Shown here: piece after piece, positions 2,483 to 52,479 of the stretch
How the letters are laid out: each line of letters begins with the position of its first letter
Position numbering within the stretch: position 1 is the stretch's first letter
Made by a program: the position numbers and the translations under genes
Origin: a bacterium
Lineage (GTDB): Bacteria; Joyebacterota; Joyebacteria; Joyebacterales; Joyebacteraceae
Length of the DNA: 64,000 nucleotides
Assembly (NCBI GenBank): GCA_025774935.1
Contig: JALGZK010000003.1
Coordinates: 186,001 to 250,000, forward strand
Reading direction: 5' to 3'
Notes under the pieces: model-generated
What the model saw: the letters and a program-made list of their open reading frames with translations, nothing else
What the model was told of the DNA's origin: nothing
Databases searched by the model: none

Positions 2483-2487
2483 CAGAC

Positions 2488-4934: not shown

Positions 4935-4977
4935 CCCCCGGCCCGGGGTGACGATGTCCTCACTCCGTTCCGCCGCG

Positions 4978-5016: not shown

Positions 5017-5071
5017 TTTCACACATGCGGCTCTCCGCATGAAGCGAGAGCGTGCGTGTCACTCCGCTCGC

Positions 5072-12323: not shown

Positions 12324-12574
12324 TCCAGTCTCCTGACTCGGCCGCGTTCCGGCCGCATCCCTCGTGCCGCCCGTCAGGGTAATGTAGGTCTCGCGACCCC
12401 GCTCTCCCTGAGTCGTCGGGACGGGCAAGCTGCCTGTTCGGTTCCTTTACCTCCGGCCCGCCGCATGGTCCCCCCGGACGCGGCGGCAGCCGGGTGATTC
12501 TCGTCACACCGCAGGTCCTGCCGCTGGGCCGGCGGGGGTCCGGGGAGTCCCCGGACCCCACCGGGCCCAGTCAT
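12324..12574. other. Intergenic region between two giant genes
   Basis: It contains the hairpin at 12525-12569 and the leader of the 6816-12323 gene. A segment around 12395-12410 (minus strand AGGGAGAGCGGGGTCGCG) resembles part of the leader near 43230-43255 (GGGAGAGCGGGACCGCG). No promoter could be called, so the gene may rely on read-through from 12575-16081. Confidence 0.5.
12525..12569 (-). terminator. Long GC-rich hairpin after the beta-helix giant gene
   Basis: An 11-pair perfect core (GGGGTCCGGGG with CCCCGGACCCC, loop ACT) extends outward to about 18 of 21 pairs. It begins five bases after the stop codon at 12575. No U-tract follows. Confidence 0.5.
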
Positions 12575-26926: not shown

Positions 26927-27120
26927 CCTGAACCTCGCTTGAAAGATGTCAGCCGTTTGCGTGGATTGCATCGAACCCGCTCTCAGTTACCGTCCTGCCC
27001 GCGGCGGCGCCTGATCACCGCAGGCCACGGGCGTCCCCCTTTCTCCAGGACCGGGCGAAACCGGCCCGGCGCGGCCGTGCCCGGAGTTACCTCCGAGCAC
27101 GGCGTTGTCTTCCCCCATCG
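26927..27120. other. Intergenic region between two giant genes
   Basis: Apart from the hairpin at 27074-27103 and a second weaker GC hairpin near 27050-27070, I see no promoter and no gene. Read-through from the 27121-32193 unit is likely. Confidence 0.5.
27074..27103 (-). terminator. GC-rich hairpin after the 27121-32193 gene
   Basis: GCCGTGCTCGGAG pairs with CTCCGGGCACGGC (13 pairs, one wobble) around GTAA, 17 bases after the stop. No U-tract. Confidence 0.5.
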
Positions 27121-29178
27121 CTACTTGAGAAGCATCATCTTGTGACTGTCGTGGAATTCCCCGGCCTGCATCGTGCAGAAGTACACGCCGCTGCCGACGG
27201 ACTCGCCCTTGTCGTTCCTGCCGTCCCACACGATCTCGTGGGCGCCCGGATCGACCGAACCGTCAACGAGCGTTCTCACCAGCCGGCCCGTGACGTCGTA
27301 CACCCTCACCGACACCTGCGACTCGTGCGGCACGCTGAACGCCACCTTCGTCATCGGGTTGAACGGATTCGGGGTGTTGCCGACGAGGCGGAACGTGCGC
27401 GGCACCTCGGGACGGGCTTCCAGATCGTCAAGCTCCGCGTAAAGGGTCTCGTTGTCGACGCCCCTCAAGTCCGCGCTCTCGAATCCGAGCGCGTACTCGT
27501 CCCCAAGCGCACGGAACGTCAGGAGCGCCACTTCGCCTGAACCGCCGATCGTCACATCGGTGCCGAGAACCGCCACGTCCACCTGAACCGTGCCCTCACC
27601 CTCTCCGTACCAGAAGAACACCTGGCCGAGGGGTGACAGCATGTGATCCGAGAGCCTCGCGGACACGAGCTCGAGTTCCGATCCCTCGAATGCCACGAGC
27701 GCGGAGAGTCCCTTCACTTCAGTGGCGTTGCCATCGAGCCTGAGGGCTATCTCGATGTCACCCATCTCCGTGGTGCCAATCTCAGACAGCTCAAGCGACA
27801 GGGCCTTCGTCGACTCGTCCGGCAGGAACGGGACCGGCCGTGGTGCCACTTCGCCGTAGTTCATGGCGAAGATCATCAGATCCTCGAATTGAACTGCGTC
27901 GTCCGGCTCAGGGATCCCGAGGCGGCCGTTGTCGTCCGTAGGACCTACGTCGCACTCCGAGTCGTTGAACCCCACAGGCGGGGCTGCCGCGTAGGTCCCG
28001 CCGAGCTTGTCGATGTCGGCGGCGTTCACGAGGCCGTTGTAGCCCCACGTGCCGAGGGTCGTAGCGACGTCGCCAAGCCAGTAGTTCGTCGCGCGGTCCT
28101 GGCCCGTGCCGGCTGCGATCCCGTAGTTCAGGGCCCAGTCGTACGCGAACGCACTGTAGTAGTGGATGTCGCGCGGCACGATCGAGTGCGTGGTACTCGT
28201 CACCACACCCGTGGCGTCGTACGCCGTGCCGTCCCCGGTCGTCTCGTCGGTCGGGTACGACGGCGCCGCCGTGTCGTAGTACGGGTAGTCGCCCCACGCA
28301 TCGTACTGGACCCTCACCCCGTAGTAGTTCGTGTCGAGACCGGACGGGTCGTCCCAGTCCAGGTCTACCTCCTCGTGTGCAGGAGCAGCGGCGAAACCAG
28401 TGATCGCACCCGGTGCGGTGTTGTCGGCCTCGATGTCGTCGCTGTCGGTCCCCGAGTTGCCGAGCCCGTCAGTCGCCGTGATCGTCACGGTCTTGACGCC
28501 GTCGGCCGTCAGCGTCACGCTCGCGAGAGCCGTCGTCCACGTCGCCACGTTCGCTGAGTAGCTCTCCGCCGCCACAGCCGAACCGCCACCTGCCAGGAGC
28601 CCCGAGAGATCAGCGACGATGTCGGCGGCCGTCAGGCCGTAGTCGTCGGTCACCGTGGCCGTGAGCTCCAGGTTGTCGGTGTCCTTGGCGAAGTCATCCG
28701 TGTGGGCCAGCGTCAGGTTTTCGATGAAGGCCCCGGTCACGACCGGATCCGTGATATCCACCTGGATCTCGCCGTCGTCCTCGAAGAACCCGGTCAAGGG
28801 GTTGTTGTTCTTGTCCCGCACCGCCACGATCGTGAGATCAACAGGACTCGTCCCGAAGGCGACCGCATCGAACCCCAGGGTGAACATGGTCCCCGGGCCC
28901 GTCACGCCGTCGACTCCCCCAAGCAGAGTGCAGTCGATCGTTCTCGTGTTGCCGGTTCCGTAGACGAAGAACTGCGTCGTGCCAGCGTCCGAGAGCAGAG
29001 TGCCCTCCGTGACGCCGGTCAGGGCGACCTTGGCTGCGTCCCAGGTCACGGTCATCGAGTAGCCGTAGAGGAGGCCGCTCCCGCCACCCAGGTAGTTCAC
29101 ATCGATCTCGCCGTCCGGTGTGTTCGGAAGCGACGCCACGTTCAGGATGAGCGGGTCGGGGTCGCAGACGACGTTCCC
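27121..29178 (-). repeat. C-terminal cassette, copy 5
   Basis: About 686 codons from GNVVCDPDPLILN to the stop. Many stretches are near-identical to copy 4 at the DNA level, for example the bases coding for FEDLMIFAMNYGEVAPR. Confidence 0.85.
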
Positions 29179-32100
29179 CGCAAGGAGCGGGACGAACGTC
29201 ACGTAGTCGGATACCGCGTTCCCGAGACCTCCCGGGTTCGACGTCCCGTGGAACGGTCCCGTCGGGTCACCCCACCAGTTGTAGGTCGCGTCGACGGCCG
29301 CCGTCAGGTAGTTGTAAACGCCGAAGGATGCGTTCCCGAAGATGGCGTTGTTGTAGATGTCGATGAGACCCGGCCATCCGTCGTAGAGCGCCACGCCCAT
29401 TCCGCCTGTGTTGTCCCGCAGGAGGTTGTCAAAGACGGCGATGTTCTTGGGGTCGAACGGCGTGTCGGGCGTCGCCTCGTAGTAGCCGTCCCCGTAGTTG
29501 CTGAGGAAGATCCCGTTCATGTTCGCGCTCATGTCGTTCCCGCGAACGTCGATCTCCTGCGATGCATCGATCCAGAGAGCGCTGTAGGTCCCGTCGTGCA
29601 GATCGTTCTCTGCGACCTCGAGCGGCGCCCCCGCCGATGTCATCGACTGGAGACAGATCGAGGCTTGGGCCGTGTTGTAGACCTCGTTGCCCCTGATCTC
29701 GAGCCCCGTGAAGTCGAGAAGAGCCGTGAGGGTGGGGTCGTAGATGCCGAGCGGGTCTGAGGGGTCATACCGCTCGCTCTCGGTTCCGAGGTAGATGCCG
29801 AAGCCTCTCGACCCGTTCGTGTTGTAGATCGTGTTGTCGAGGAGCTTCAGGCCGGAGTAGCCGAAGTTGGCGACGTAGTCGGGCTGGTCGAGGTAGCCCA
29901 TGATGCCGATCTTGCAGTCGCGGATGGTGAATCCCTGGATCGTGACGTCGTCGGCCGCGAGGTCGAAGCCTGGGCTGCCTGCTCCTGGCACAACCTCGGG
30001 ATTCCCGGACCCGATCAGCGCGACCGCCTTGTCCACGCTCACCGACTCGGTGTACGTGCCTGGAAGCACGTTCACCGTGCTCGCGGTAACGAGATCCACG
30101 CCCTCCTGGATCCTGCCACCACCGCCGCCGCCCTGCGGGCTGTCGTCGTCCACCCAGAGCTCAGAGAAGTCCCCGACATAGCCAGGGTCCTGCGCGGCCC
30201 CGCCACCGAGCCACGGGGTGTAGTCGCAGGTCACGCCGCCGTTCGCCTCAGCCTTCACCGCAGCGGCGTCCGTCGACCCCCAGTAGTTCCCGGAGGCGTC
30301 GACCGTCTCGGTCACGGCACCGCCGACCTTGACTCCGAAGTTCGTGTTCCCGCTCAGGTCGTTGTCGGCGATCGTCACCCGCTCCGTGTCGATCACGTGC
30401 TTGTCGACGTTCACGCCGGTGTCGATGCAGTCGCTGAGGTCATTCCCCTCGATGGTGATGTCCTGCCCCTTGATGTTGATGCCGAAGCGGACCTGGCCAT
30501 CGAGGTCGTTGTCCTCGATCGTCACGAACGTCGTCGTGCCCCAGAACGACACCCCATCCTTGTTCCCGGAGAGATCGTTCCCGCTGATCGTGACGTCCGT
30601 GACGTTGCTGCCGCCGCATCCCCGGGAGCCAGTGAACCCGCTCACGACGTTTCCGGTGACGCTCGCGGTCGTCACTCCTGTCATGTAGATGCCCGCCGCG
30701 TCCCCCGCGGGGGTGCCACCCGGTGCGATCGTGTTGTTCGTGATCGTCACGTTTGTGGCGACGTTCGGCTGAACGACGACTCCCGTCTTGTTCACGACCA
30801 TGCGGTTCCTGTTGACGGTCGTGAAGTCGTTGCCCTTGTAGAGAACGCCGATGTACCCGTCGAGGATGTTGTCCTCGATCGTGAGGTTGTCGTCCCAGCA
30901 GCGGACGACGGACTCATCCGAGTAGTTGAACGTCGGACTTCCAAGCACGGTGAAGCCCGCGAGCGAGGCCCCCGTCACGCCGCTCGGGATCTCCACCGCC
31001 ACGTTCGGGTTCGTGACGCCGATCCCGGTGATGTCCACTGTCGACTCGTTCGCGGGAGTAGTCCGGGCGCCGCCGGCCGTCGGGTCAATCCCGTACTGCG
31101 CGCCCCGGAGATCCACAGACGTGCTGAGCGTCAGGCGCTCCGCGTACGTCCCGGCCGCCACTTCGATCACGTCGCCTGGATTCGCTGCGTTGATCGCGGG
31201 CTGGATCGCGAAGAACCACGTGTCCTGGGTGACGTTGTGAACCGGGGCGTTCAAGTCCGCCACCGCGAATCCGTAGTCCTCGTCCCCGATAGACGCGTCG
31301 TTGAACTCGCCACCGTAGTGGATGCCGAAGATCCCGCCACCCAGATCGGTGATCGAGCACTCCTTCAGGCTCAGCCTGTCCGGAGTAAGCGAGGCATCGA
31401 CCTTTGGGAGGAGCGGGCTGCTGTGGTCGTAGAGGAAGGTCCAGGAGCCCGCACCTGCGTTCAGCGTCGCCGACGTGGCGAGCTGGACGCCTGAGTCGTC
31501 CTGCGCGACGAGGAACATCCCGTAGTCGCCGCTCGGGAGGACGGCTATGCCCCCCGAGGGTGTGAATCCGTTGACGACGCCGGACTCCGCGGCAGCAAAC
31601 GCGACGATCTCAGTCGTCCCGTCGGGGGAGTAGTACCTCGCGTCCCCCGCGGCTGCCCCGGAGTTGCAGTATCGGATGTTCCCTCCACCGTCCTGGTACC
31701 AGAAGTGGACCTTTCCGCCGATCGGGTCGTCGTAGACCGCGACGATCCCCGCCCCGTTGTCCGTGTTGAGCCCCAGGTTGCCCTGGCCGACCCACGTGAC
31801 CCCACCGTCGGTGGAGAGGCTGTAGTCGGTGACGGACGGGCAGTTGTTCGAGTACATGATCCAGTTCCCGGCGGACATCTGGTACACGGTCGGATGGCAC
31901 GTCCCTGAGTATCCAGTCAGTACCGTCCCTGTCGCCGGAAACTGATTGTAGTCACCCACCGAGACCACACGAGTGAACGCCGAGCTGTTGTTCCTGTCCT
32001 CGAAGTACATGATGTAAGGATCACCGGCCGTTCCCGCGCCGGTGACGCTCAGGTACCGAATCTCGTATGCCGGGAATGGCCCGGTCAGTGGATTCGCCTG

Positions 32101-32193
32101 CTTGCCGTAGTCTGTGACCGCGTGGGCGGGGGTCGTGCACACGACCAGCGCCACCGCGGCTGCAAGCATGAGGAGGGTTGAGGTGCGCTTCAT
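27121..32193 (-). CDS. Giant secreted protein: N-terminal propeller-like domain, two beta-helices and cohesin/dockerin cassette
   Basis: The protein has 1690 residues; GGAG lies before the ATG at 32193. Residues 1-25 are a signal peptide (TPAHA-VTD). Residues 26-320 resemble a sialidase or GH43-like propeller (YIMYFEDRNN, YSLSTDGGVTWVG, VHFWYQDGGG), but no catalytic acids can be assigned. Residues 325-672 are a beta-helix almost the same as that of the 37723 gene. Residues 690-1005 are a second, different beta-helix. The full cassette runs from 1006: cohesin-like A, Ig-like, FN3-like, dockerin-like (1368-1453), cohesin-like B (1460-1590), sorting domain (1600-1690, NTPNPFNPMT, final MLLK). 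A strong sigma70-like promoter lies 325 bases upstream, and the long leader carries a hairpin element shared with the 37723 gene. Confidence 0.9.
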   Translation of the reverse strand: MKRTSTLLMLAAAVALVVCTTPAHAVTDYGKQANPLTGPFPAYEIRYLSVTGAGTAGDPYIMYFEDRNNSSAFTRVVSVGDYNQFPATGTVLTGYSGTCHPTVYQMSAGNWIMYSNNCPSVTDYSLSTDGGVTWVGQGNLGLNTDNGAGIVAVYDDPIGGKVHFWYQDGGGNIRYCNSGAAAGDARYYSPDGTTEIVAFAAAESGVVNGFTPSGGIAVLPSGDYGMFLVAQDDSGVQLATSATLNAGAGSWTFLYDHSSPLLPKVDASLTPDRLSLKECSITDLGGGIFGIHYGGEFNDASIGDEDYGFAVADLNAPVHNVTQDTWFFAIQPAINAANPGDVIEVAAGTYAERLTLSTSVDLRGAQYGIDPTAGGARTTPANESTVDITGIGVTNPNVAVEIPSGVTGASLAGFTVLGSPTFNYSDESVVRCWDDNLTIEDNILDGYIGVLYKGNDFTTVNRNRMVVNKTGVVVQPNVATNVTITNNTIAPGGTPAGDAAGIYMTGVTTASVTGNVVSGFTGSRGCGGSNVTDVTISGNDLSGNKDGVSFWGTTTFVTIEDNDLDGQVRFGINIKGQDITIEGNDLSDCIDTGVNVDKHVIDTERVTIADNDLSGNTNFGVKVGGAVTETVDASGNYWGSTDAAAVKAEANGGVTCDYTPWLGGGAAQDPGYVGDFSELWVDDDSPQGGGGGGRIQEGVDLVTASTVNVLPGTYTESVSVDKAVALIGSGNPEVVPGAGSPGFDLAADDVTIQGFTIRDCKIGIMGYLDQPDYVANFGYSGLKLLDNTIYNTNGSRGFGIYLGTESERYDPSDPLGIYDPTLTALLDFTGLEIRGNEVYNTAQASICLQSMTSAGAPLEVAENDLHDGTYSALWIDASQEIDVRGNDMSANMNGIFLSNYGDGYYEATPDTPFDPKNIAVFDNLLRDNTGGMGVALYDGWPGLIDIYNNAIFGNASFGVYNYLTAAVDATYNWWGDPTGPFHGTSNPGGLGNAVSDYVTFVPLLAGNVVCDPDPLILNVASLPNTPDGEIDVNYLGGGSGLLYGYSMTVTWDAAKVALTGVTEGTLLSDAGTTQFFVYGTGNTRTIDCTLLGGVDGVTGPGTMFTLGFDAVAFGTSPVDLTIVAVRDKNNNPLTGFFEDDGEIQVDITDPVVTGAFIENLTLAHTDDFAKDTDNLELTATVTDDYGLTAADIVADLSGLLAGGGSAVAAESYSANVATWTTALASVTLTADGVKTVTITATDGLGNSGTDSDDIEADNTAPGAITGFAAAPAHEEVDLDWDDPSGLDTNYYGVRVQYDAWGDYPYYDTAAPSYPTDETTGDGTAYDATGVVTSTTHSIVPRDIHYYSAFAYDWALNYGIAAGTGQDRATNYWLGDVATTLGTWGYNGLVNAADIDKLGGTYAAAPPVGFNDSECDVGPTDDNGRLGIPEPDDAVQFEDLMIFAMNYGEVAPRPVPFLPDESTKALSLELSEIGTTEMGDIEIALRLDGNATEVKGLSALVAFEGSELELVSARLSDHMLSPLGQVFFWYGEGEGTVQVDVAVLGTDVTIGGSGEVALLTFRALGDEYALGFESADLRGVDNETLYAELDDLEARPEVPRTFRLVGNTPNPFNPMTKVAFSVPHESQVSVRVYDVTGRLVRTLVDGSVDPGAHEIVWDGRNDKGESVGSGVYFCTMQAGEFHDSHKMMLLK
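30170..31200 (-). repeat. Beta-helix module shared between giant genes, copy b
   Basis: Long runs, such as those around 30450-30640, differ from 41040-41230 at only a few scattered bases, mostly synonymous. The flanking domains on both sides are different or far less alike. Confidence 0.85.
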
Positions 32194-32378
32194 CTTCTCT
32201 CTCCCCGGCCCTTTCGGCCCGTTTGCTCCCTCAGTTTCACGCCCTCACCAAGTCCTCGGGCGCAGCTCAGTCACAGGCTTCTCTCGGTCCCGCTTGACAC
32301 CTCCTTCACTCGTCCGTATATTGCGCAACGAAGCGTGGGTACGCGCGCCTTCCTCAGGCAACGCGTTCCCCGCTGTCC

Positions 32379-32440
32379 ACGGGCGGCTGGGCCTGGCTGC
32401 GAACCCAATCTCCAGTCGCCCGTTCTCTATTCCTGTGACA
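32379..32440 (-). promoter_or_regulatory. Conserved leader hairpin element, copy 1
   Basis: On the minus strand GTCACAGGAAT is followed by a 12-base arm (ACGGGCGACTGG), a loop containing GATTGG, and the closing arm CCAGCCGCCCGT (11 of 12 pairs). The loop, both arms and the flank match the element at 43147-43203. It starts about 186 bases before the ATG. Confidence 0.6.
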
Positions 32441-32524
32441 TTCGGCGGTGTGCGCTCGGCTGCGAACGGCCCCGCGATCGGCCTCAAGCACCGTCAGAGG
32501 TCGTCCCTCATCCGAGGCACTCTA

Positions 32525-32553
32525 ATGATAGCGCACACTGAGCCGATGGTCAA
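32525..32553 (-). promoter_or_regulatory. Strong sigma70-like promoter for the 27121-32193 gene
   Basis: TTGACC (32548-32553) and TATCAT (32525-32530) each match five of six consensus bases and are 17 bases apart on the minus strand. The predicted start near 32518 gives a leader of about 325 bases. Confidence 0.7.
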
Positions 32554-32682
32554 TGCTGAACACTATGAAAGCGCATCAAATCCACTCTGAATGAGCGACT
32601 GCTCAGTTTTGTCCTCTCTGACAAGCACCGTCGACGCCTGCTGTCATGTATCTCAAGAACTCCCGCTCCGTAGCGAGTCAGA

Positions 32683-32710
32683 CGATAGCCCGGCGCAGGC
32701 CGGGCTATCG
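32683..32710 (-). terminator. Perfect 12-pair hairpin in the intergenic region
   Basis: CGATAGCCCGGC and GCCGGGCTATCG enclose CTGC. It is 233 bases after the stop of the 32943 gene and 130 bases before the promoter of the next unit. It is symmetrical, so it could act on either strand; no U-run. Confidence 0.45.
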
Positions 32711-32942
32711 CGTAGTTCCTGATCTCCATGAGCGCATCGGGGCAGGCCCGGACGAAACTGCAAGCCGGGGGGTCGGAGCAGAAGACGCCCGGGCCTCCCC
32801 ATGGACCATCCCGGAGAGCGGTACGGGAGAGGTCCATTGCGCTGTACGGCTGCGGCGTCATGCCGCGATCTTCTACCCTCCAGCCCGGGCTGTGCGATGC
32901 CGGCCGCCCGCAGTCCCTTGGCCGGGAGGGCTCTCGTTCCTC

Positions 32943-35015
32943 CTACTTCAAGAGCATCATCTTGTGGCTATCGTGGAAGTCGGCCGTCTGCATCGTGCAG
33001 AAGTAGACGCCGCTTCCCACCGACTCGCCGTGATCGCTCCGGCCGTCCCACGCTACCTCGTGGACGCCCGGCTCGACCGTACCGTCAACCAGCGTCCGGA
33101 CCAGACGACCAGTAACGTCGTAGACCCTCACAGAGACCTGAGCCTCGTGCGGGACCGCGAACGCTATCTTGGTCATCGGGTTGAACGGGTTCGGGGTGTT
33201 CCCGACCAGGCGGAACGCCATCGGTACACCAGGCTTCGCCTCGTGCTCCTCGAGGTCCGCGTAGAGATCTTCGTTGTCCGCGCCCCGCAGATCCGCGCTC
33301 ACGAAGTCGAGCGCGTACTCGTCCGCGAGAACCCGGAACGTGAGGATCGCCACGTCGCCTGAGCCGCCGAGCGTCACGCCGGTGCCCAGCACTGCCATGT
33401 CGACCTGGACGGAGCTCTCGTTCCCGCCGTGCCAGAAGAACGTGCGGCCGATCGGCGAGAGCATCTCATCCGAGAGCCTCGCCCCCACGAACTCGACCTC
33501 GTTCGAGTCGAACTCGATCAGCGTCGAGATACCCTTCACTTCGCTGGCGTTCCCCTCGAGCCTGAGAGCGATCTCGACCTCGCCCGCCTCCAACGCCGTC
33601 CGCTCGACGAGCTCGAGCGACAGAGCCTTCGTTGACTCGTCCGGGAGGAGGGGCACAATCCGCGGCGTCACCATCCCGTAGTTCAGAGCGAAGATCATGA
33701 GATCCTCGAACTGTATGGCCGCGTCGGGGAACGGCAGGCCCAGTCTGGAACCGTTCGGGTTCACCGTGGGACCGACGTCGCACTCCGCGTTGTTCCCCGT
33801 CGGGCTCGTGACGAAGTACGTGCCACCGAGCTTGTCGATGTCCGCGTCATTCACGAGGCCGTTATAGCCCCAGACGCCGATCGTAGTCGCGATGTCGCCC
33901 AGCCAGTAGTTGTTAGAGAGGTCGCGGGCGGTCGTCGCAGCGGCTCCGTAGTTCCTGGCGATGTCGTAGCAGAACGCCTGGTAGTAGTAGATGTTCCGCG
34001 GGATGACACCGTCCGTGTACGTCGTCCCGGCGCCGTTGTAGACCTCCGTCCCGGAGGCCTCGGTCGCGGGATAGAACGCACCTACCGCCGGCCACGAGCC
34101 GACGAACGCGGGATAGAGCGGGTAGTCGCCGACGTTCTCGTCTCTCCGAACGGTGACGCCCGCGAGATAGAGATCCGTCCCCATCGTCCAGCTGAGGCCG
34201 CACTCCTCGTGGGCGACGGTTGCGTCGAAGTCGGTGACCGCCGTCGGAGGCGTGTTGTCGGCGATGATCGTGTCGCTGTCCTGCGCCGCGGGGTTCCCGA
34301 TCGGGTCGGTCGCGTCGACCGTCACAGTCACAGTCCCGTCGGCGGGCGTGCAGGCCACGCTCGCGATCGCTGTCGTCCAGGTCGCGACGCTCGCCACGTA
34401 CGTGTCGGGATTCACCGCCGCGCCGCCGCCCAGACCGGAGAGGTCGGCCACGATGTTCGCGACACCGAAGCTCGGGTCGTCATCGGTGACAGTAGCCGTC
34501 ACACGCGCGGTGTCGGTGTCCTTGATGTAGTCGTCGGTGTGCGCGAGGGTCAGGTTCTCGATGAGAGTCGCCGTGATCACCGGTGCCTGGACGTCCACGA
34601 TGAGCTCGCCATCGTCCTCATAGAAGCCGGGGAGCACCGCGTTCGTGTTGTCCCTGACCGAGATGATCGTAACGTCAATCGGGCTCGTGCCCTGCGACAG
34701 CCCCGTGAAGGCGATCGAGAACATCGTCCCGGGACCCGTGACGCCCGGGTTGCTGGCGCCGAGGATCGCGCAATCGACCGTGATCTCATTCGCCCCGGAA
34801 GCGCTCGCCTGGAAGACCGTCGAGCCGGCATCCGACAGGAGCGTTCCTTCCGTCACGCTGCCGGGAGCCGTGCTCGCGAGAGCGCCGTCCCAGGAGAACT
34901 TGATCGAGTACCCGTAGACCATGCCGCCTCCGCCGCCGAGGTAGTTCACGTCCACCGTCTGCGTCGGATTGGCGACCGTCAGGTACTGCGGATCAGGATC
35001 GCACACGATGTTCGC
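32943..35015 (-). repeat. C-terminal cassette, copy 6
   Basis: About 691 codons from ANIVCDPDPQYL to the stop. The cohesin-like A, Ig-like and FN3-like parts follow copy 7 most closely (VACTPADGTVTVTVDATDP region). Confidence 0.85.
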
Positions 35016-37484
35016 CGTGCCCGTCTTCCCGATCCACGGATCGTAGTCGACCTCCGCGGCAGTTCCGACGACCGTGTCGCCGGTGCCGCCGGGATTCCCG
35101 GCGTTCGTCGGGCCGCTGGCGTCACCCCACCAGTTCATCTCGGCGTCGAGGGGACCACCGGTGCCCGAGTCTACCGTCAGACCCCAGTCGGTGTGCCCGC
35201 TGATGGTGTTGAGGTAGATCGAACCCGCAGGAATCGGGTACGTACCGCCAAGGGTGGCCACCCAGATGCCCTGTCCGCAGTTCGTGAGGACATTGTTGTA
35301 GACATTGAGGGTGTTGATGCCCCAGAGCTGAAGGGCCTCGCCCTCGCCCCACGAGCCCGGCTGGACGTCGTTGATGTGGTTCCCGTAGATGTTGACGACG
35401 TCCGCGCGATTGACCTCGAACGCGGCCCACTGGTTGCCGACCTCGGCATTGTTGCCGCCGATGTTGTCGACCGTGTTCCCGTAGATGTTCACGGTGTTCG
35501 TGAAGTCCCCGGAGAACCCGCGGAGGACGACAGAGCCGTTGTTGTCGTGGAAGTAGTTGTCCGCGAAGACGACGTCCTCCATGATGGACCCGTCTCCGCC
35601 GCTCCCGCTGCGCGTGTCGCAGACCGACCAGCCGAGCAGTTCCTTGAACTCACAATCGGTCACGGTGAAGTCGCCGGTCATCTGACCGCCGGAGTAGCCG
35701 TGCCGTCCGGAGGCGAACTGCCCATCGACGATCAAGGTGTCGAAGGTGATGTTGCTGATCGTGCCGAGCGCGCGAATCACCGAGTTACTGGCCGCGGCCC
35801 CCTGGATGTGAAGGCTCGCGACCGTCAGGCCGTCCGTCCCGCCGGCGATCGTCATGCCGCCCGTGATGATCGGGAGGCTGCCGCCAGTGAGCGTTCCGCC
35901 GCTCATCGTCGAGGGGATCGCGACGCTCTCGTTGTATGTCCCCTCCTCGATAGTGACAGTGGAGCCAGCACCCGCAAGGTCGAGGGCGTCTTGGATCGAG
36001 TCGTCGGACCCCCAGTCCATCGGGACCGTCCCGGGTGTCGCCGCGTACCACGGGCTGTAGTCGACGTTCGTTGTGACGTTCACGCCGCCGCCGCGACCCG
36101 AACCGCCTGAGAGCGGAGACGACTGACCGCCCTCGCCGTGCGGAACTACCTCGTCCGTGGCGGCGAACGGAGAGATTGCCCCGTGCGAGGAACCTGACAC
36201 CGGCCTCGGCACTGTCACCGCCGGGCCGTCCGTGGCTCCCCAGTAGTTCTCTTCGGCGTCGACCGTGTTGGAGTAGTTGTTGTAGACACCGAAGTCCCCG
36301 CAGCCGGAGAGGTCGTTGCCGGTGGCGGTCACGTTGACGGTACCGCCGCTTACCTCCACGTACTCGACGATCCCGTCGCCACAGGCGATCGTGTTGTTCG
36401 TGACGGCGGCCGTCATCGTTCCACTCGTCCAGCCGCTGTAGTAGCCGCCGCCCCAGGGATCGACGTCGCTGCCGTACAGATCGACACCGGAGTACGCGCC
36501 GTCGTGGATGTTGCAGTCGTCGACCGTCAGGTCGATCGATGCGCCTGGGTCGCCCAGGTGGACACCGACGCTCCAGTCGCAATCGTCGAGCTCGACGCCG
36601 TCGACCGTGATGACGGGCGTGCCGGGGTGCGTGTAGACCCAGTTCCACTGGGAGTAGTTCACGCCCATCTGGCACTCGTCGACGAGCCCGCCGGTGATGT
36701 CGATGTCACCGCACTCGAAGAAGAGGATGCCCGTCGCGGCCCAGTCGCTGCCGGTGTAGGCGACGCCCGTCACGTTGTTGCCCGTGAGCGAGCCGTCCGC
36801 GCCGTACGAGATCTGGATGCCGTTCCCGGCGTTGTACGGGCTCGGGGCGTTGTCGATGTCATTCCCGTTGACCGTGCAGTCCGCGTCGGGTCCCATGACC
36901 AAGAGCCCGCCCTTCTGGAAGTTCGGAAGGACGTTGTCCGAGAAGTCGACGGTACACGTGCCGGTCGCGCTGTGCGTCGCGGCCACGGAGACCACGCGCT
37001 GCGCCCCGGGGCTCCCGGCGTAGAGCACGTCCTCGATCCGGCAGTCCGTCACCGAGCCGTCGGCGTCGAACATGTGGATGCCGTAGAAGTTGTCCGGACC
37101 GAGCTCGCGGCCGTCGAGCGTCATGTCGGTGATGTTCACCGTGCACGGACCGACGACGCCGATCATCGGATCGACCGTGCGGGCCGTCGCGTTCCACTGC
37201 GTGACCGAGTAGGTCGTCCGGTCGCCCACGTCGACGGCCTCGAGGATCGTCGAGCCGACTCCCGCGCCCACGAGATCGAGGCTCTTGCCGTCGATCTTGA
37301 CCTGTTCTCTGTACGTGCCGGCGGCCACGTGGATCACGTCTCCAGAGGCCGCGGCGGCGTCGACGGCTGCCTGAATCGTCGCATAGGTTCCCGGAACATA
37401 GAGGTCGCCGGCCAGCGCGGGCACCGACACCAGAACCAGGAGGGCCGTCAACAGAGCGAATCCGCACATTCCGTTTGCTCTCAT
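32943..37484 (-). CDS. Giant secreted protein: two beta-helices and cohesin/dockerin cassette
   Basis: The protein has 1513 residues from the ATG at 37484 (GGGAG eight bases upstream, and the hydrophobic signal MCGFALLTALLVLVSVPALA follows at once); the frame from 37547 adds 21 unlikely residues. Residues 25-430 are a beta-helix paralogous to the whole head of 12575-16081 (both have GTYREQ, RELGPDxFYGIH, NxxNFQKG and DPWGGGYY). Residues 475-800 are a second beta-helix with INGNTV-like coils. The cassette follows: cohesin-like A from 824, Ig-like, FN3-like, dockerin-like 1191-1278, cohesin-like B 1283-1412, sorting domain 1424-1513 (NTPNPFNPMT). The insertion of the second helix is the main difference from its paralogue. 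No catalytic set is recognised; a binding role at the surface is inferred. Confidence 0.9.
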   Translation of the reverse strand: MRANGMCGFALLTALLVLVSVPALAGDLYVPGTYATIQAAVDAAAASGDVIHVAAGTYREQVKIDGKSLDLVGAGVGSTILEAVDVGDRTTYSVTQWNATARTVDPMIGVVGPCTVNITDMTLDGRELGPDNFYGIHMFDADGSVTDCRIEDVLYAGSPGAQRVVSVAATHSATGTCTVDFSDNVLPNFQKGGLLVMGPDADCTVNGNDIDNAPSPYNAGNGIQISYGADGSLTGNNVTGVAYTGSDWAATGILFFECGDIDITGGLVDECQMGVNYSQWNWVYTHPGTPVITVDGVELDDCDWSVGVHLGDPGASIDLTVDDCNIHDGAYSGVDLYGSDVDPWGGGYYSGWTSGTMTAAVTNNTIACGDGIVEYVEVSGGTVNVTATGNDLSGCGDFGVYNNYSNTVDAEENYWGATDGPAVTVPRPVSGSSHGAISPFAATDEVVPHGEGGQSSPLSGGSGRGGGVNVTTNVDYSPWYAATPGTVPMDWGSDDSIQDALDLAGAGSTVTIEEGTYNESVAIPSTMSGGTLTGGSLPIITGGMTIAGGTDGLTVASLHIQGAAASNSVIRALGTISNITFDTLIVDGQFASGRHGYSGGQMTGDFTVTDCEFKELLGWSVCDTRSGSGGDGSIMEDVVFADNYFHDNNGSVVLRGFSGDFTNTVNIYGNTVDNIGGNNAEVGNQWAAFEVNRADVVNIYGNHINDVQPGSWGEGEALQLWGINTLNVYNNVLTNCGQGIWVATLGGTYPIPAGSIYLNTISGHTDWGLTVDSGTGGPLDAEMNWWGDASGPTNAGNPGGTGDTVVGTAAEVDYDPWIGKTGTANIVCDPDPQYLTVANPTQTVDVNYLGGGGGMVYGYSIKFSWDGALASTAPGSVTEGTLLSDAGSTVFQASASGANEITVDCAILGASNPGVTGPGTMFSIAFTGLSQGTSPIDVTIISVRDNTNAVLPGFYEDDGELIVDVQAPVITATLIENLTLAHTDDYIKDTDTARVTATVTDDDPSFGVANIVADLSGLGGGAAVNPDTYVASVATWTTAIASVACTPADGTVTVTVDATDPIGNPAAQDSDTIIADNTPPTAVTDFDATVAHEECGLSWTMGTDLYLAGVTVRRDENVGDYPLYPAFVGSWPAVGAFYPATEASGTEVYNGAGTTYTDGVIPRNIYYYQAFCYDIARNYGAAATTARDLSNNYWLGDIATTIGVWGYNGLVNDADIDKLGGTYFVTSPTGNNAECDVGPTVNPNGSRLGLPFPDAAIQFEDLMIFALNYGMVTPRIVPLLPDESTKALSLELVERTALEAGEVEIALRLEGNASEVKGISTLIEFDSNEVEFVGARLSDEMLSPIGRTFFWHGGNESSVQVDMAVLGTGVTLGGSGDVAILTFRVLADEYALDFVSADLRGADNEDLYADLEEHEAKPGVPMAFRLVGNTPNPFNPMTKIAFAVPHEAQVSVRVYDVTGRLVRTLVDGTVEPGVHEVAWDGRSDHGESVGSGVYFCTMQTADFHDSHKMMLLK

Positions 37485-37722
37485 CTTCTCTTCTCCCGCT
37501 GTGCACATCAGGTGAGTGCTACACGCGGTGCGATCAAGCACCGCCAATCCCCGTCCGTCTCTCGTCGGGGGACGTCGCCCTTCAGGGCGGACCTGCGGAC
37601 CTCACATCCTCCCTCCTTTGTGCGAGATCTCCCTGTGCTCCCTTCATCGCTTGGTTCCGTTTCATCGGTGGAGACGGCAGGTCGCCCCGGGAGCCGCAGC
37701 GCACCCGGGGCGACCGTGTCTC
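37485..37722. other. Intergenic region between two giant genes
   Basis: It holds the hairpin at 37680-37715 and a leader without a recognisable promoter. The last 60 bases before the ATG share blocks with the leader of 12575-16081, including TTGATCGC, a CTCAC core and AGCGGGxGAAGA next to the ribosome site. A GCGGTGC / GCACCGC hairpin lies in the same part. Confidence 0.5.
37680..37715 (-). terminator. Perfect 12-pair hairpin after the 37723-42885 gene
   Basis: GGTCGCCCCGGG pairs with CCCGGGGCGACC around a 12-base loop, eight bases after the stop. No U-tract. Confidence 0.5.
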
Positions 37723-39795
37723 TTACTTCAACAGCATCATCTTGTGGCTGTCGTGGAAGTCGGCCGCCTGCATGGTGCAGAAGTAGACGCCGCTCCCGAC
37801 GGAATCACCGCGGTCGTTCCGGCCGTCCCACACGATCTCGTGCTGGCCGGGCTCGACCGTACCGTTCACCAGCGTGCGAACCTCGCGGCCGGTCACGTCA
37901 TAGATCGTGACCGTCACGCGGGACTCGTACGGGACGTTGAAGGCGATCTTCGTCACGGGGTTGAACGGGTTCGGTGAGTTCCCCACGAGACGGAAGGTCG
38001 CCGGAACCTCTGGCCTGGACTCGCAGCCCTCGAGCTCCGCGAAGAGGTCCTCATTCCCGGCGCCCCGGAGATCCGCAGCCTCGAACTCGAGCGCGTACTC
38101 GTCAGCGAGCGCTCTGAACGTCAGGACCGCGATGTCCCCGGAGCCGCCGACCGTCACGTCGGTGCCGAGCACCGCCATGTCGACCTGGACCGAGTTCCCG
38201 TTCGCCGCATGCCAGAAGAAGACCGGAGCGAGAGGTGAGTACATGTCGTCGGAGAGCCTCGCGCTCACGAACTCGAGCTCCGAGGAATCGAATGCGACGA
38301 TCGTCGAGATGCCCTTCACCTCGCCCGCGTTCCCACGCAGGCTCATCGCTACTTCGATCTCGCCGTCATCGGTCACCCCGACCTCCGCGAGCTCGAGCGA
38401 CAGCGCCTTCACTGCCTCATCAGGCAGGAACGGAACGATGCGCGGGCTCACACGGCCGTAGTTCATCGCGAAGATCATCAGGTCCTCGAACTGCACCGCC
38501 GCGTCCGGGAGCGGAAGCCCCAGGCGGTGGCCGTTCGGATGGACCGTAGGACCGACGTCGCACTCGGCGTTGTTGCCGACCGGGTTCGTGGCGAAGTAGG
38601 TTCCTCCGAGCTTGTCGATGTCGGCGTCGTTCACGAGGCCGTTGAAGCCCCAGACGCCGAGCGTCGTAGCAACGTCTCCGAGCCAGTAGTTGTTGGAGAG
38701 GTCGCTCGCCGTCGTGGCAGCGGGACCGTAGTTCCGCGCGATGTCGTAGCAGAACGCCTGGTAGTAGTAGATGTTCCGCGGGACGACCGCGTCGGTCGCG
38801 TTCGCGAGCGGACCGTTGTAGGCCTCGAAGCCCTGGGTCTCGTCGGCGGGGTAGTAGCCGCCGAGCCCTGCCGGCCACCCGGCCACGAAGAGCGGGTAGG
38901 TCGGGTACTCGCCCGCGTTGTCCGAACGTCGTACCGTCACGCCGGCGAGGTAGAGGTCGGTCCCCATGGTCCAGGTGAGGTCGCACTTCTTGTGACCCAC
39001 CGCCGCGTCGAAGGCCGTGACCGCCGTCGGAGGCGTGTTGTCGGCGATGATCGTGTCGCTGTCCTGCGCCGCGGGGTTCCCGATCGGGTCGGTCGCATCG
39101 ACCGTCACGGTCACGGTCCCGTCGGCGGGCGTGCAGGCCACGCTCGCGATCGTGGTCGTCCACGTCGCGACGTTCCCCACGTACGTGTCGGGGTTCACCG
39201 CAGCGCCGCCACCGAGCCCGGACAGATCAGCAACGATGTTCGGAATCCCGAACGTCGGATCGTCGTCCGTGACCGTCGCAGTCACCCGCGCGGTGTCGGT
39301 GTCCTTGATGTAGTCGTCGGTGTGCGCGAGGGTCAGGTTCTCGATCAGGGTGGTCGTGACAACCGGCGCCTGGACGTCGACGATGAGGAGCCCATCATCC
39401 TCGTAGAAGCCACTGAGGGGCTGGTTGTTGTTGTCGCGGACGTTCAGGACCGTGATGTCGACGTCGCTCGTCCCCTGCGAGAGACCTGTGAACTCGACCG
39501 AGAACATCGTTCCCGGTCCCGTCACACCGGCTTCGTCCCCGAGGAGCGCACAGTCGACGGTCACCTCGTTCGCGCCGCTGTTGCCGGCCATGAAGAAGGT
39601 CGTCCCCTCGTCCGACAGGAGCGAGCCCTGCGTGACCTTGACCGCCGCCGAGCTCGCAATCGCGCCGTCCCAGGTGAACTTGACGGAGTAGCCGTACATG
39701 AGGCCGCCACCGCCGCCGAGGTAGTCGACGTCGATCGTCTTCGCGGGACTGGCGACCGTCAGGTACTCGGGATCCGGAACGCACACGATGTTCCC
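37723..39795 (-). repeat. C-terminal cassette, copy 7
   Basis: About 691 codons from GNIVCVPDPEYL to the stop. Its cohesin-like A resembles copy 2 (EYLTVASPxKTIDVxYL), while its downstream Ig-like part is nearest to copy 6, so the copy appears mosaic. Confidence 0.85.
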
Positions 39796-42700
39796 CGTCC
39801 CCGCCTTCCCGACCCACGGATCGAAGAGGACGTTGTCCGAGACCGGGACACCCACCCCGCCGGGATTCAGCGTCGCGTGGAACGGCCCCGTCGCATCGCC
39901 CCACCAGTTCGAGAGACCGTTCGCGACGACCGTCGTGCTCGTGGTGAGCATCCCGTGGCTGTCGTTCCCCGACAGGTCGTTGAAGTTCGCGGTCACGACG
40001 GCCGTGTCGCTGCCGTCGTAGCCGACGTGGATGCCCACCGTGTTCGCGGTGAACGCATTGCTCGTGAGCGTGCCCGCCGTGCCGGGACCGTAGTAGGTGT
40101 CGATCAGGACACCCGCCGACGTCGAGCCATCAGAAGACGCGACCCCGCGGCACTCGGTCACGATGTTCCCAGTGATCGTCGCCACGGCACCGCCACCAAG
40201 CTCGATGCCGTAGTCGAGCCAGTCGCCGACGCCCTTGCCGGTGTAGGTGTTCCCGCTGATCGTCGAGCCGGTGATGCCTGTTCCGAACCCGAAGATCCCG
40301 ATGCGCCCGATGTTCTCGAACGTGTTGCTCGTGACCGTCCAGTTCTGAGAGCCGAAGAACACCAGCGCGACGCCGCTGTAGTGCGGGCCGGACTCGTTGT
40401 AGAGGATGTTCCTCATGTCGCAGTCGTTCATCGCGCCACCGCCGTGGGCGCGGATCCCCTGGTAGATGAGATGGCCCGTACCATCGAGCACCAGATCCTC
40501 GAGCGAGAGGCTGTAGCCCGCCTCCACTAGCCACCACCCGCGCGTGTCGCCCGCTGTGCCCGTGTCCGAGTCGGTCATGATGACGGGCTTGCTCGAGGAG
40601 TCGCCGACGACTGCCACGTCCTTGTCGACGACGATCTGGCCTGCCTCGGTGTAGGTGCCGGGAAGCACGTTCACAGTGCTGCCGGAGACGAGCTTGATGC
40701 CCTCCTCGACGGGACCGTCCGTGCCCGTCTGGGGACTGTCGTCGTCCACGTACAGCGTGGAGAAGTCGCCGGCGTACCCCGGGTTCTGGGCAGTGCCCCC
40801 GCCGAGCCAAGGGGTGTAGTCCGCGCCAACGCCGGCGTTCGCCTCCGCCTGCACCGTGGCCGCATCCGTCGAGCCCCAGTAGTTCGCAGAGGCGTCGACC
40901 GTCTCGACCACCGCCCCGCCGACCTTGACGCCGAAGCTCGTGTTCCCACTCAGGTCGTTGTCCGTGATCGTGACACGCTCGGTGTCGATCACGTGCTTGT
41001 CCACGTTCACACCGGAGTCGCCGCAGCCGCTGAGGTCGTTCCCCTCGATGACGATGTCCTGGCCCTTGATGTTGATGCCGAAGCGGACCTGTCCGTCGAG
41101 GTCGTTGTCCTCGATCGTCACGAACGTCGTCGTCCCCCAGAACGACACGCCGTCCTTGTTCCCGGAGAGGTCGTTCCCGCTGATCGTGATGTCCGTGACG
41201 TTGCTCCCTCCGCAGCCTCGGGAGCCTGTGAAGCCCGTCACGACGTTGCCGGTGACGCTCGCGGTCGTGACACCGGTCATGTAGATGCCTGCCGCGTCGC
41301 CGGCGGGGCCGCCGCCGGGCGTGATCGTGTTGTTCGAGATCGTGATGTTCGTGGTCACGTTCGGCTGGACGATCACACCAGTCTTGTTCACGACCATGCG
41401 GTTTCTGTTGACGGTCGTGAAGTCGTTGCCCTTGTAGAGCACACCGATGTAGCCGTCGAGGATGTTGTCCTCGATCGTGAGGTTGTCGTCCCAGCAGCGG
41501 ATGACGGATTCATCCGAGTAGTTGAAGGTCGGACTGCCGATGACCGTGAATCCGGCGAAGGAGGCTCCTGTGACACCACCTGGGATCTCCACCGCCACGT
41601 TCGGGTTCGTGACGCCAATCCCCGTGATGTCGACGATCGACTCGTCGGCCGGGGTCGTCCGTGCTCCTACGCCGGTCGGATCCACACCGTACTGAGCGCC
41701 GCGGAGGTCCACGGAGGGATTGATCGTCAGCCGTTCGGCGTAGTTCCCCGCCCCAACCTCGATCACGTCGGCCGCGCTCGCTGCGTCGATCGCGTTCTGG
41801 ATGTAGCAGTAGTGGTCGAGTGTGAGGTCCCAGTCGACCGGCAGGAGGTAGACGTTCCCCGTCCCCGAACTGGTCCCACTGGCCTCGGAGCCGTAGAACA
41901 TGTAGACATCTCCGCCGTCCTCGAGCGTCGCCGGCCACATGTCGACCCAGCTCGTGCCGCCGTAGCCCCCGCCCGTTGCTATCTTCGCGGTCGTCTGGTC
42001 GAGTCCGTCGAACCCTGTGATGGACGACGCCGTCCAGTACTTGAGGAACTGCTTCGTGCCGTCCCACGGTGCGAAGAAGAAGACGTAGTCGCTTCCGATC
42101 TTCGTGAGCATCGGATCGCAGTCGAGGTCGAGCGTGCCAGTGATCGTAGCCTTGAGCGTCCACGTCGGCCCCGTGCTGTACTCGTAGACGTAGTACGCGG
42201 GGAGCCCCCAAGAGGTGTAGTAGAGGTAGATGCCGCCACCGTCCACGAAGAACCTCGGCATGCCCTCGTGCGCGACAACAGTGTAGGACGCGCTCCAAGT
42301 CGACCCGTTGTAGGTCGTCACGTCGAGGGCCCCGCCTGTGTTCACGACGAGCCAGATCTCGCCACCGTACACCGTCGCCCACAGATGGGACCCCGCGAAC
42401 GACGTAGCCGCGCCCGGAAGCACGTCCGCCACGCTCCAACTCGTTCCGCCGTCCGTCGTCGTCCACGCCTTGACCTGTGCCCCGTCGCCGCTGTCGACCG
42501 CGAACACCCAGATTGCCCCGCCGTACTCGATGCACGACGTCTGGCCCTGGTAGATCCTGTCCGCCGTGACCGGCATGCTCCCCACGACCTGAGGCGTCGC
42601 GGTCGCGAGCCCCGCCACAGTCGACGCCTTGTTGTAGTAGATCTCGTAGTGGGAGTTGTCGGGGTTGCCTGTTCCGTAGTTCCCCGTGAAGTCGTACGAC

Positions 42701-42885
42701 CGGCCATAGAAGAGCCAGTAGTTGCCACTGCCGTCCTTCAGAACGCTGTTCCCTCTCTCGTAGTACGCGTTCGTCGTGACCTGTGTCGGCTGCGTCACGA
42801 GAAGGTCCGCCGCCCACACAGAACCGGCGGTCACCGTCGATGAAACGACGACGACCGCCGCCAGGATCAGGAGCTTCCTCAACAT
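37723..42885 (-). CDS. Giant secreted protein: N-terminal propeller-like domain, two beta-helices and cohesin/dockerin cassette
   Basis: The protein has 1720 residues with ATG at 42885. Residues 1-25 are a signal peptide (GSVWA-ADL). Residues 26-355 look like a GH43/sialidase-like five-bladed propeller (YWLFYGRSYDFTG, WTTTDGGTSWS, GGIYLYYTSWG, DYVFFFAPWDG); such folds read as glycosidase-like, but the acids cannot be assigned from sequence alone. Residues 360-700 are the shared beta-helix module, and 715-1025 a second unrelated helix. The cassette starts at 1031: cohesin-like A, Ig-like, FN3-like, dockerin-like 1398-1485, cohesin-like B 1490-1620, sorting domain 1630-1720 (NSPNPFNPVT, final MLLK). 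It has the same plan as 27121-32193, with a different propeller and second helix. It has its own promoter and a leader of about 415 bases. Confidence 0.9.
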   Translation of the reverse strand: MLRKLLILAAVVVVSSTVTAGSVWAADLLVTQPTQVTTNAYYERGNSVLKDGSGNYWLFYGRSYDFTGNYGTGNPDNSHYEIYYNKASTVAGLATATPQVVGSMPVTADRIYQGQTSCIEYGGAIWVFAVDSGDGAQVKAWTTTDGGTSWSVADVLPGAATSFAGSHLWATVYGGEIWLVVNTGGALDVTTYNGSTWSASYTVVAHEGMPRFFVDGGGIYLYYTSWGLPAYYVYEYSTGPTWTLKATITGTLDLDCDPMLTKIGSDYVFFFAPWDGTKQFLKYWTASSITGFDGLDQTTAKIATGGGYGGTSWVDMWPATLEDGGDVYMFYGSEASGTSSGTGNVYLLPVDWDLTLDHYCYIQNAIDAASAADVIEVGAGNYAERLTINPSVDLRGAQYGVDPTGVGARTTPADESIVDITGIGVTNPNVAVEIPGGVTGASFAGFTVIGSPTFNYSDESVIRCWDDNLTIEDNILDGYIGVLYKGNDFTTVNRNRMVVNKTGVIVQPNVTTNITISNNTITPGGGPAGDAAGIYMTGVTTASVTGNVVTGFTGSRGCGGSNVTDITISGNDLSGNKDGVSFWGTTTFVTIEDNDLDGQVRFGINIKGQDIVIEGNDLSGCGDSGVNVDKHVIDTERVTITDNDLSGNTSFGVKVGGAVVETVDASANYWGSTDAATVQAEANAGVGADYTPWLGGGTAQNPGYAGDFSTLYVDDDSPQTGTDGPVEEGIKLVSGSTVNVLPGTYTEAGQIVVDKDVAVVGDSSSKPVIMTDSDTGTAGDTRGWWLVEAGYSLSLEDLVLDGTGHLIYQGIRAHGGGAMNDCDMRNILYNESGPHYSGVALVFFGSQNWTVTSNTFENIGRIGIFGFGTGITGSTISGNTYTGKGVGDWLDYGIELGGGAVATITGNIVTECRGVASSDGSTSAGVLIDTYYGPGTAGTLTSNAFTANTVGIHVGYDGSDTAVVTANFNDLSGNDSHGMLTTSTTVVANGLSNWWGDATGPFHATLNPGGVGVPVSDNVLFDPWVGKAGTGNIVCVPDPEYLTVASPAKTIDVDYLGGGGGLMYGYSVKFTWDGAIASSAAVKVTQGSLLSDEGTTFFMAGNSGANEVTVDCALLGDEAGVTGPGTMFSVEFTGLSQGTSDVDITVLNVRDNNNQPLSGFYEDDGLLIVDVQAPVVTTTLIENLTLAHTDDYIKDTDTARVTATVTDDDPTFGIPNIVADLSGLGGGAAVNPDTYVGNVATWTTTIASVACTPADGTVTVTVDATDPIGNPAAQDSDTIIADNTPPTAVTAFDAAVGHKKCDLTWTMGTDLYLAGVTVRRSDNAGEYPTYPLFVAGWPAGLGGYYPADETQGFEAYNGPLANATDAVVPRNIYYYQAFCYDIARNYGPAATTASDLSNNYWLGDVATTLGVWGFNGLVNDADIDKLGGTYFATNPVGNNAECDVGPTVHPNGHRLGLPLPDAAVQFEDLMIFAMNYGRVSPRIVPFLPDEAVKALSLELAEVGVTDDGEIEVAMSLRGNAGEVKGISTIVAFDSSELEFVSARLSDDMYSPLAPVFFWHAANGNSVQVDMAVLGTDVTVGGSGDIAVLTFRALADEYALEFEAADLRGAGNEDLFAELEGCESRPEVPATFRLVGNSPNPFNPVTKIAFNVPYESRVTVTIYDVTGREVRTLVNGTVEPGQHEIVWDGRNDRGDSVGSGVYFCTMQAADFHDSHKMMLLK
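40780..41805 (-). repeat. Beta-helix module shared between giant genes, copy c
   Basis: It encodes AERLTINPSVDLRGAQYG through GGAVVETVDASANYWGS. It is the near-identical partner of copy b; the N-terminal propellers upstream of the two modules share little sequence. Confidence 0.85.
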
Positions 42886-52277: not shown

Positions 52278-52426
52278 GGTCTTCGATCCGCCCTCTTCCA
52301 CCACACGCGCATCACGCGGCGTCAGGGCAAGCCCCGGGGCCGCGGGCGGGCACCCCTGCCCGCGCGCTACCATGATAACCCATCCCGGCCTCCTTCGCCC
52401 GGCCCAGCTTGGAGGTGGGCGGCCGC

Positions 52427-52455
52427 ATTGTAGTACATGTTGCTCTGTATAGCAA
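52427..52455 (-). promoter_or_regulatory. Sigma70-like promoter for the giant repeat protein
   Basis: TTGCTA (52450-52455, four of six) and TACAAT (52427-52432, five of six) are 17 bases apart on the minus strand, in the most AT-rich spot of this intergenic region. It starts right after the terminator of the pre operon. Confidence 0.65.
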
Positions 52456-52479
52456 GAAACCCCCACGCTGGGGGCTTTT
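52456..52479 (-). terminator. Bidirectional terminator
   Basis: CCCCCA and TGGGGG pair around a three-base loop, flanked by AAA on one side and TTTT on the other, so U-runs follow on both strands (GTTTCTT on the minus strand, GCTTTTC on the plus). It separates the pre operon from the giant repeat protein. Confidence 0.75.

Follow-up and report, generated by a model that had tools for sequence, protein, structure and literature searches.

We analyzed a window of 64,000 nt (positions 186,001 to 250,000 of contig JALGZK010000003.1, from a genome of the bacterial family Joyebacteraceae), in which the list of open reading frames (ORFs) shows eight long genes in tandem, all on the minus strand and in the order g8 to g1. 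We observed that g5 is a mosaic: it is orthologous to a gene of a congener, G2a, outside amino acids (aa) 418–1006, and within this region the inner part of its first beta-helix module (helix 1) is closest to that of the non-adjacent gene g7. It is very probable that these mosaic genes arose by recombination among the paralogues of the array and that the inner tract of helix 1 came to be shared by g5 and g7 after the split of the two species. A sequence-only reading of the window had proposed a recent exchange of near-identical helix modules inside the array; exchange within the array is well supported, while the identity level, the extent and the position of the edges need correction. The features on which the argument rests are the following:

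21479–26971, minus strand: g4 (ORF)
27121–32193, minus strand: g5, 1690 aa, a mosaic of propeller-like head (31213–32193), helix 1, helix 2, cohesin-like part, immunoglobulin (Ig)-like part and FlgD_ig/type IX secretion system (T9SS) tail
37723–42885, minus strand: g7, 1720 aa, with an exchange tract in common with g5
30064–31212, minus strand: helix-1 module of g5, aa 328–710 (Pfam Beta_helix/NosD, AlphaFold, Foldseek)
40663–41808, minus strand: helix-1 module of g7, aa 360–741 (blastn match to g5)
24503–25651, minus strand: helix-1 module of g4, aa 441–823, the older third copy (identity comparison)
30316–30942, minus strand: exchange tract, g5 side, aa 418–626, sharpest to aa 589 (= 30427) (permutation scan, segmentation, trees, approximately unbiased (AU) tests)
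40912–41538, minus strand: exchange tract, g7 side, aa 450–658, sharpest to aa 621 (= 41023) (segmentation, identity)
29176–30942, minus strand: region of g5 unlike its orthologue G2a, aa 418–1006, comprising the exchange tract and an unrelated helix 2 (g5–G2a identity)
23531–25381, minus strand: region of g4 matching the helix-1 core and helix 2 of G2a, aa 531–1147, with a right end that is blurred within the cohesin-like domain (g4–G2a identity)

An inner tract of helix 1 is shared between g5 and g7

The three copies of helix 1 lie where the sequence-only reading had placed them, and a search of the own genome revealed none further. They are not near-identical as had been claimed: blastn aligned the modules of g5 and g7 with 83.4% DNA identity over 1161 nt, and even the core of about 520–630 bases reaches only 89–90%. 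The identity along g5 is distributed as follows:

g5 aa 1–320 (head): 41.6% of aligned bases to g7; 83.8% to G2a
g5 aa 328–417: 75.9% to g7; 83.0% to G2a
g5 aa 418–589 (core): 89.9% to g7, with 40-codon windows peaking at 93–95%; 64.3% to G2a
g5 aa 590–710: 78.4% to g7
g5 aa 711–971 (second helices): 43.7% of aligned bases to g7; 48.4% to G2a
g5 aa 1007–1690 (tail): 68.5% to g7; 81.9% to G2a

Thus, in the core the paralogues g5 and g7 are closer to each other than the orthologues g5 and G2a, and the strong difference of heads and second helices between g5 and g7 noticed earlier is borne out. The copy in g4 is indeed older, with 66.9% DNA identity to g5 in the core. That the differences are mostly synonymous applies to the core, where the rates of synonymous (dS) and non-synonymous (dN) substitution are 0.41 and 0.036 and most differences are silent, but less so to the remainder of the module (dS 0.84, dN 0.142), in which the silent share is smaller.

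For better evaluation of these steps we used a permutation scan of 2537 polymorphic sites in g5, g7, g4 and the congener gene (5000 shuffles, giving a floor of P = 0.0002) and a three-way segmentation that counts 1499 informative sites in g5, g7 and G2a. With all sites the permutation scan detected an excess of g5–g7 similarity at g5 aa 390–633 (P = 0.0002), and with the 1094 third-position sites at aa 422–602 (P = 0.0006), so g5 and g7 resemble each other significantly more in the tract than elsewhere. The segmentation placed a first cut at aa 416/420 and a second one at 589–626, with the orthologue-like signal back from aa 1009; third positions alone (580 sites) gave the same cut at 416/420, and 0 of 200 shuffles were as good. 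At this cut G2a flips from g5-like to g4-like. Sharp identity steps at the edges of the module had been named beforehand as the sign of an exchange. Our home-made scans, which are not GENECONV itself, did show sharp steps, but the informative left one lies inside the module, about 90 codons inward of its front edge, where the step is simply homologous helix meeting non-homologous heads. Near both edges of the core we observed blocks conserved in the four compared genes (aa 426–437 with 84–88% and aa 600–617 with 85–87% identity). These blocks fit homologous recombination, which is weak evidence because the exchange itself raises that mean identity.

The congener gene G2a as reference

In the congener genome (G002, 80% complete, 370 contigs) contig C261 carries, in this order, a 199-aa tail with 94% identity to g6, the gene G2a, an orthologue of g3 and an orthologue of g2. 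A single gene therefore takes the place that g5 and g4 occupy in the window, and its parts are distributed over both of them. The head of G2a is 87% identical to that of g5, its helix 1 is 79% identical to g4 and 70% to g5, its helix 2 matches g4 with 87.5% at the aa level, and its Ig and last parts have 82% identity to g5, compared with 63% and 77% to g4. At the DNA level G2a and g4 share 70.4% before the first cut, 81.0% in the core and 84% in helix 2. The form of the helix-1 core found in g4 is hence the one that stands behind a g5-type head in the congener.

The same change of relatives appears in trees, which we calculated from protein and DNA for nine core and fifteen tail sequences. In the core g5 and g7 group together with a support of 98 (protein) and 100 (DNA), and the AU test rejected g5 with G2a (P = 5e-62 for protein and 0.003 for DNA). 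In the tail g5 groups with G2a, again with a support of 98 (protein) and 100 (DNA), and g5 with g7 was rejected (P = 1e-61 and 6e-42, respectively); here the neighbours of g5 are G2a and g4, and those of g7 are g6 and g2. For the first 90 codons of helix 1, g4 with G2a was rejected (P = 0.020 and 0.014), and g5 with G2a was indistinguishable from g5 with g7. Different neighbours in different parts of one gene indicate recombination, as uneven rates cannot produce them, and one tree for the whole of such a protein is misleading because its parts have different relatives.

Concerning the age of the exchange, dS between g5 and g7 is 0.41 in the core (bootstrap 0.27–0.55), 0.84 in the rest of the module (0.65–1.13) and 0.93 in the tail (0.78–1.09), and dS between g5 and G2a over their orthologous parts is 0.67 (0.60–0.76). 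As the value of the tract is below that of the orthologues, the core would, at equal rates, have become shared after the species split. The exchange is recent in this relative sense but not late in absolute terms, and a tract common to g6 and g7 (see below) is younger, with a dS of 0.17.

Direction of the exchange and alternative explanations

In the mechanism we propose, the array proteins consist of three kinds of parts: a head that varies, beta-helix cassettes (one or more, in several of the proteins), and an unchanging tail built from cohesin-like, Ig-like and FlgD-type sorting domains. Stretches would be copied from gene to gene by homologous recombination among the paralogues, as gene conversion or double crossover and presumably by the ordinary machinery of the cell. 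After the window species and its congener had separated, the inner coils of helix 1 (about 520–630 bp) would thus have become common to g5 and g7. The wider region of g5 (aa 418–1006) is unlike the congener orthologue, whose form of this region is now found in g4. The earlier proposal of module transfer or gene conversion in the array is supported by the identity steps, the permutation and AU tests, the conflicting trees and a congener orthologue without a g7-like piece, but for the inner tract (g5 aa 418 to about 589–626) and not for the whole module.

A g5-type head is present in 4 of the 20 family genomes, with one copy each. The core behind it is of the g5/g7 type in g5, of the g4 type in G2a and in G8a, a gene from another genus, and of neither type in G9a. 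The core of G8a falls within the g4/G2a clade (support 97–99), and its grouping with g5 and g7 was rejected (P = 0.002 and 9e-5). It has 80% aa identity to G2a while the G8a head has 79% to g5, and this agreement is as expected under joint descent of head and core; in G9a the core (49–55%) has diverged much further than the head (80%), as if the core had been separately replaced. For these two reasons we favour g5 as the recipient of the tract, although the direction is not settled. We also noted that the g5-headed gene on contig C24 of genome G008 is split over two overlapping ORFs (885–3023 and 2663–6241 of locus L049), perhaps by a frameshift or an assembly error.

A different account of the same pattern makes G2a the recombinant: it would have gained a g4-type cassette in a species that then lost g4, and the old form would have persisted in g5 and been exchanged with g7. 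A single clean replacement of aa 418–1006 would account for G2a, the congener contig does have one gene in place of g5 and g4, and the G9a core is not of the g4 type. However, G8a in another genus likewise joins a g5-type head to a g4-type core, with core and head identities in line with joint descent, and the g5–g7 and g5–G2a steps coincide, which one event into g5 explains better. We thus regard this account as possible but rather unlikely. Lateral transfer of the core into both g5 and g7 from another species is much less probable still. Helix modules do occur across phyla in many combinations, but among the 20 family genomes and the 25 loci yielded by a scan of a contig database no outside core that we compared exceeds 67% DNA identity to g5 or g7 (the closest being G8a), versus 90% between g5 and g7.

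Plain whole-gene duplication, in which selection would have slowed helix 1 and the remainder would have changed fast, hardly comes into consideration. Helix 1 is a conserved family, found also in Zixibacteria, Eisenbacteria and other records, yet the closest relative of g5 changes along the gene, from g7 in the core to G2a and g4 in the tail. Third positions and dS (0.41 versus 0.93) show the step as well, and duplication with uneven rates is rejected by the AU tests. Just as improbable is an artefact of a metagenome bin. The sequences apparently come from binned assemblies, but g5 and g7 have no exact run in common longer than 49 nt, and the copies can be told apart: the two cores differ at 10% of their sites and each is single in the genome. 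Moreover, the contig spans 296,783 bases and the head–core pairing of G2a recurs independently in G008.

Several observations weigh against recombination within the array with g5 as recipient. The right edge of the tract is blurred over aa 589–626, and third positions place it near 780–796. Membership of the G9a core in the g4/G2a/G8a clade was rejected (P = 0.008 and 0.044) and its grouping with g5 and g7 was not (P = 0.20 and 0.25), so that counting the changes leaves the direction tied. The first 90 helix-1 codons of G8a, with 59–62% aa identity to all four genes, do not fit joint descent, and G8a does not clearly join g5 and G2a there. Furthermore, the g5–g7 tract leaves helix 2 of g5 unexplained, which requires one or more further events or a donor that has since been lost. 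All family genomes look like metagenome assemblies, the key congener among them with its 80% completeness in 370 contigs.

Helix 2 of g5 has its best relative (68%) in another genus, in a gene of G008 with other neighbours. The head of g7 has a match in 5 of the 20 family genomes including its own, the other four having at most 43% identity, so that no close orthologue was found among them; the g4 head is a common domain present in 20 of the 20, with at most about 50% identity over most of its length outside its own gene. In G002 neither head has a close relative. Within the 20 family genomes helix 2 of g7 has no more than weak matches, and a 43% match over 259 residues was found in an Eisenbacteria record. 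One Zixibacteria record (L028, 1823–15100) contains an ORF of 4426 aa with many beta-helix modules of the types found in this array.

Further tracts in the array

We scanned the common tail of g1–g7 in all 21 pairs, with P values given per pair and uncorrected for the number of pairs. At P < 0.005 a tract was found in 2 of 21 pairs by third positions and in 7 of 21 with all sites. The two third-position tracts and the other genes concerned are:

34236–34409, minus strand: younger g6–g7 tract, g6 side (third-position scan: match at 40 of 45 polymorphic sites, P = 0.0005)
39019–39192, minus strand: younger g6–g7 tract, g7 side (third-position scan, exact run, dS)
38737–39030, minus strand: g2–g7 tract, g7 side (66 of 82 third-position sites match, P = 0.0025)
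13589–13879, minus strand: g2–g7 tract, g2 side (third-position scan)
12575–16081, minus strand: g2 (ORF)
32943–37547, minus strand: g6, with a tail orthologous to the congener gene G2b and a helix cassette (aa about 50–440) of the g2/G2d type

The g6–g7 tract, with a dS of 0.17 (0.07–0.35) and a longest exact run of 80 nt, must be younger than the g5–g7 tract. From aa about 800 on, g6 is mostly 77–95% identical to G2b, with a dip to 65–73% around aa 1100–1200, and its helix cassette is unrelated to that of G2b (L048). These two tracts and the g6 cassette indicate that exchange in the array recurs. Comparing the five window genes that have a congener relative (g1, g2, g3, g5 and g6), we found a different helix cassette in g5 and g6 and no module-level difference in the covered parts of g1, g2 and g3. 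A g4-like helix 2 (74–80%) was also found behind g7-type heads in genomes G013 and G017.

One could go further and regard the array as a standing mix-and-match system in which heads, beta-helix cassettes and tails are swapped at conserved seams, which we consider doubtful. If so, orthologues in sister species would keep their ends and carry different middle cassettes, and species-specific sets of surface binders would arise without silent cassettes or a dedicated recombinase.

Layout of the array, the shared tail and the fold of helix 1

The window has a base composition of 66.6% G+C. The remaining genes of the array are:

6816–12428, minus strand: g1 (ORF)
16448–21373, minus strand: g3 (ORF)
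44424–52466, minus strand: g8, 2680 aa (ORF)

According to Pfam, all eight giants end C-terminally in a FlgD-type Ig domain. The tail common to g1–g7 comprises a cohesin-like domain, an Ig-like region, a candidate dockerin-like stretch, another cohesin-like domain and the FlgD-type terminus; in g3 the first cohesin-like domain has no clear match, and g8 has only the last part. An NCBIfam run on g4–g7 scored TIGR04183 (T9SS type A sorting; cut-off 23 bits) above the cut-off in g5 (24.8 bits), g7 (26.7) and g6 (24.2) and below it in g4 (20.3), and Pfam Por_Secre_tail stayed under its cut-off of 27 in g4, g5, g6 and g7. In the genome we searched two components of the secretion system and found a SprA_N match above cut-off and one full-length PorU match (531 bits against a cut-off of 420), which makes a type IX secretion system likely. 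Judged from these sequence matches the array proteins are probably type IX secretion cargo.

A model of the tail is poor as a whole (predicted template modelling score 0.33), for which reason its whole-length fold matches were left unused; parts of it match single cohesin domains in Foldseek, many with template modelling (TM) scores of 0.67–0.75 by target length. By sequence, the only cohesin match in Pfam is a sub-threshold one in g8, and a search of the tail against solved structures found only FlgD and PorU and no cohesin. Between the two cohesin-like domains of g5 lies a stretch (aa 1331–1480, 27754–28203) that looks dockerin-like by eye; it is modelled mostly at a predicted local distance difference test score (pLDDT) below 50. 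If true, the presence of both partners, cohesin and dockerin, on the same chain would point to cross-links among the array proteins. Two repeat structures were seen elsewhere: inside g8 roughly ten long fn3 units follow one another in a chain, with a DNA similarity of about 70% among them, and g3 has LVIVD propeller repeats at 20485–21013 (12 stretches), with 126-base DNA repeats in the same part.

Helix 1 is predicted to be a right-handed parallel beta-helix. Pfam Beta_helix matches g5 with an E-value of 1.3e-20; in g7 the NosD model matches with 9e-13, and no Pfam beta-helix match was found at E 0.01. The AlphaFold model of g5 helix 1 (mean pLDDT 77) starts at aa 324 and consists of solenoid strands, with the core (aa 418–589) forming about residues 95–266 of the model, i.e. 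the middle coils, whereas the front cap and first coils remain orthologue-like. Its best Foldseek matches are inulin lyase, fructotransferases, the A-modules of AlgE4 and AlgE6, phage tailspikes and NosD. Although the E-value to beta-helix enzymes reaches 9e-6, the TM scores are only about 0.4–0.6; with all of them at 0.6 or below, no function can be assigned beyond a likely sugar-related surface. By sequence, helix 1 matched only leucine-rich repeat receptors among solved structures (E 0.006), which we regarded as chance matches. Exchange of the middle coils may alter what the proteins bind.

Comparison with known systems

The AlgE mannuronan C-5 epimerases of Azotobacter are modular, secreted beta-helix proteins that form a family of paralogues, and their R-modules are RTX calcium-binding. 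The array resembles them in that Foldseek matched helix 1 to the A-modules of AlgE4 and AlgE6, among others. Unlike AlgE, g4–g7 have no R-module family among their Pfam matches at E 0.01, and the array tails are of the T9SS type. Kgp of Porphyromonas gingivalis uses type IX secretion.

In meningococcal tpsA/tpsC, shorter tpsC cassettes supply 3' ends to a full gene (PMC3848433). There as here, the gene of a large secreted protein recombines with related sequences nearby and one part is replaced while another is kept, but the partners in our array are full-length genes and the exchanged tract is an inner one. For P. gingivalis the abstract describes surface-protein variants (Kgp, FimA, RagAB and others) that form a mosaic unrelated to strain phylogeny (PMC5266723), with rearrangement of domains and allelic exchange, as in our case; that exchange is between strains, whereas ours is between paralogues of one array and was recognized by comparing species. 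In outer membrane proteins of E. coli, too, recombination is local and limited to certain parts of surface proteins; what varies there, often in protruding loops, are the alleles that conserved loci have within one species (PMC12175518), and not giant multi-domain paralogues. The mosaic adhesive trimers of Bdellovibrio likewise make up a set of surface fibres whose tips are chimeric and vary, but the fibres are trimeric, and the abstract claims neither a T9SS tail nor exchange between array members (PMC10769870).

Among the titles that a literature search returned, none concerned this array or its exchanges, which is not proof that they are unpublished. The array is a fresh example of known mosaic evolution, here in a surface-protein array. 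Compared with the systems above, it is a well-resolved case in which giant genes for probable type IX cargo, in an uncultured bacterial family, diversify through exchange of inner beta-helix coils between paralogues, and in which a congener orthologue serves as the reference. Were such exchange to be found throughout the family, it would tie the combinatorial assembly of genes to surface binding in bacteria that are known here from assembled genomes alone.

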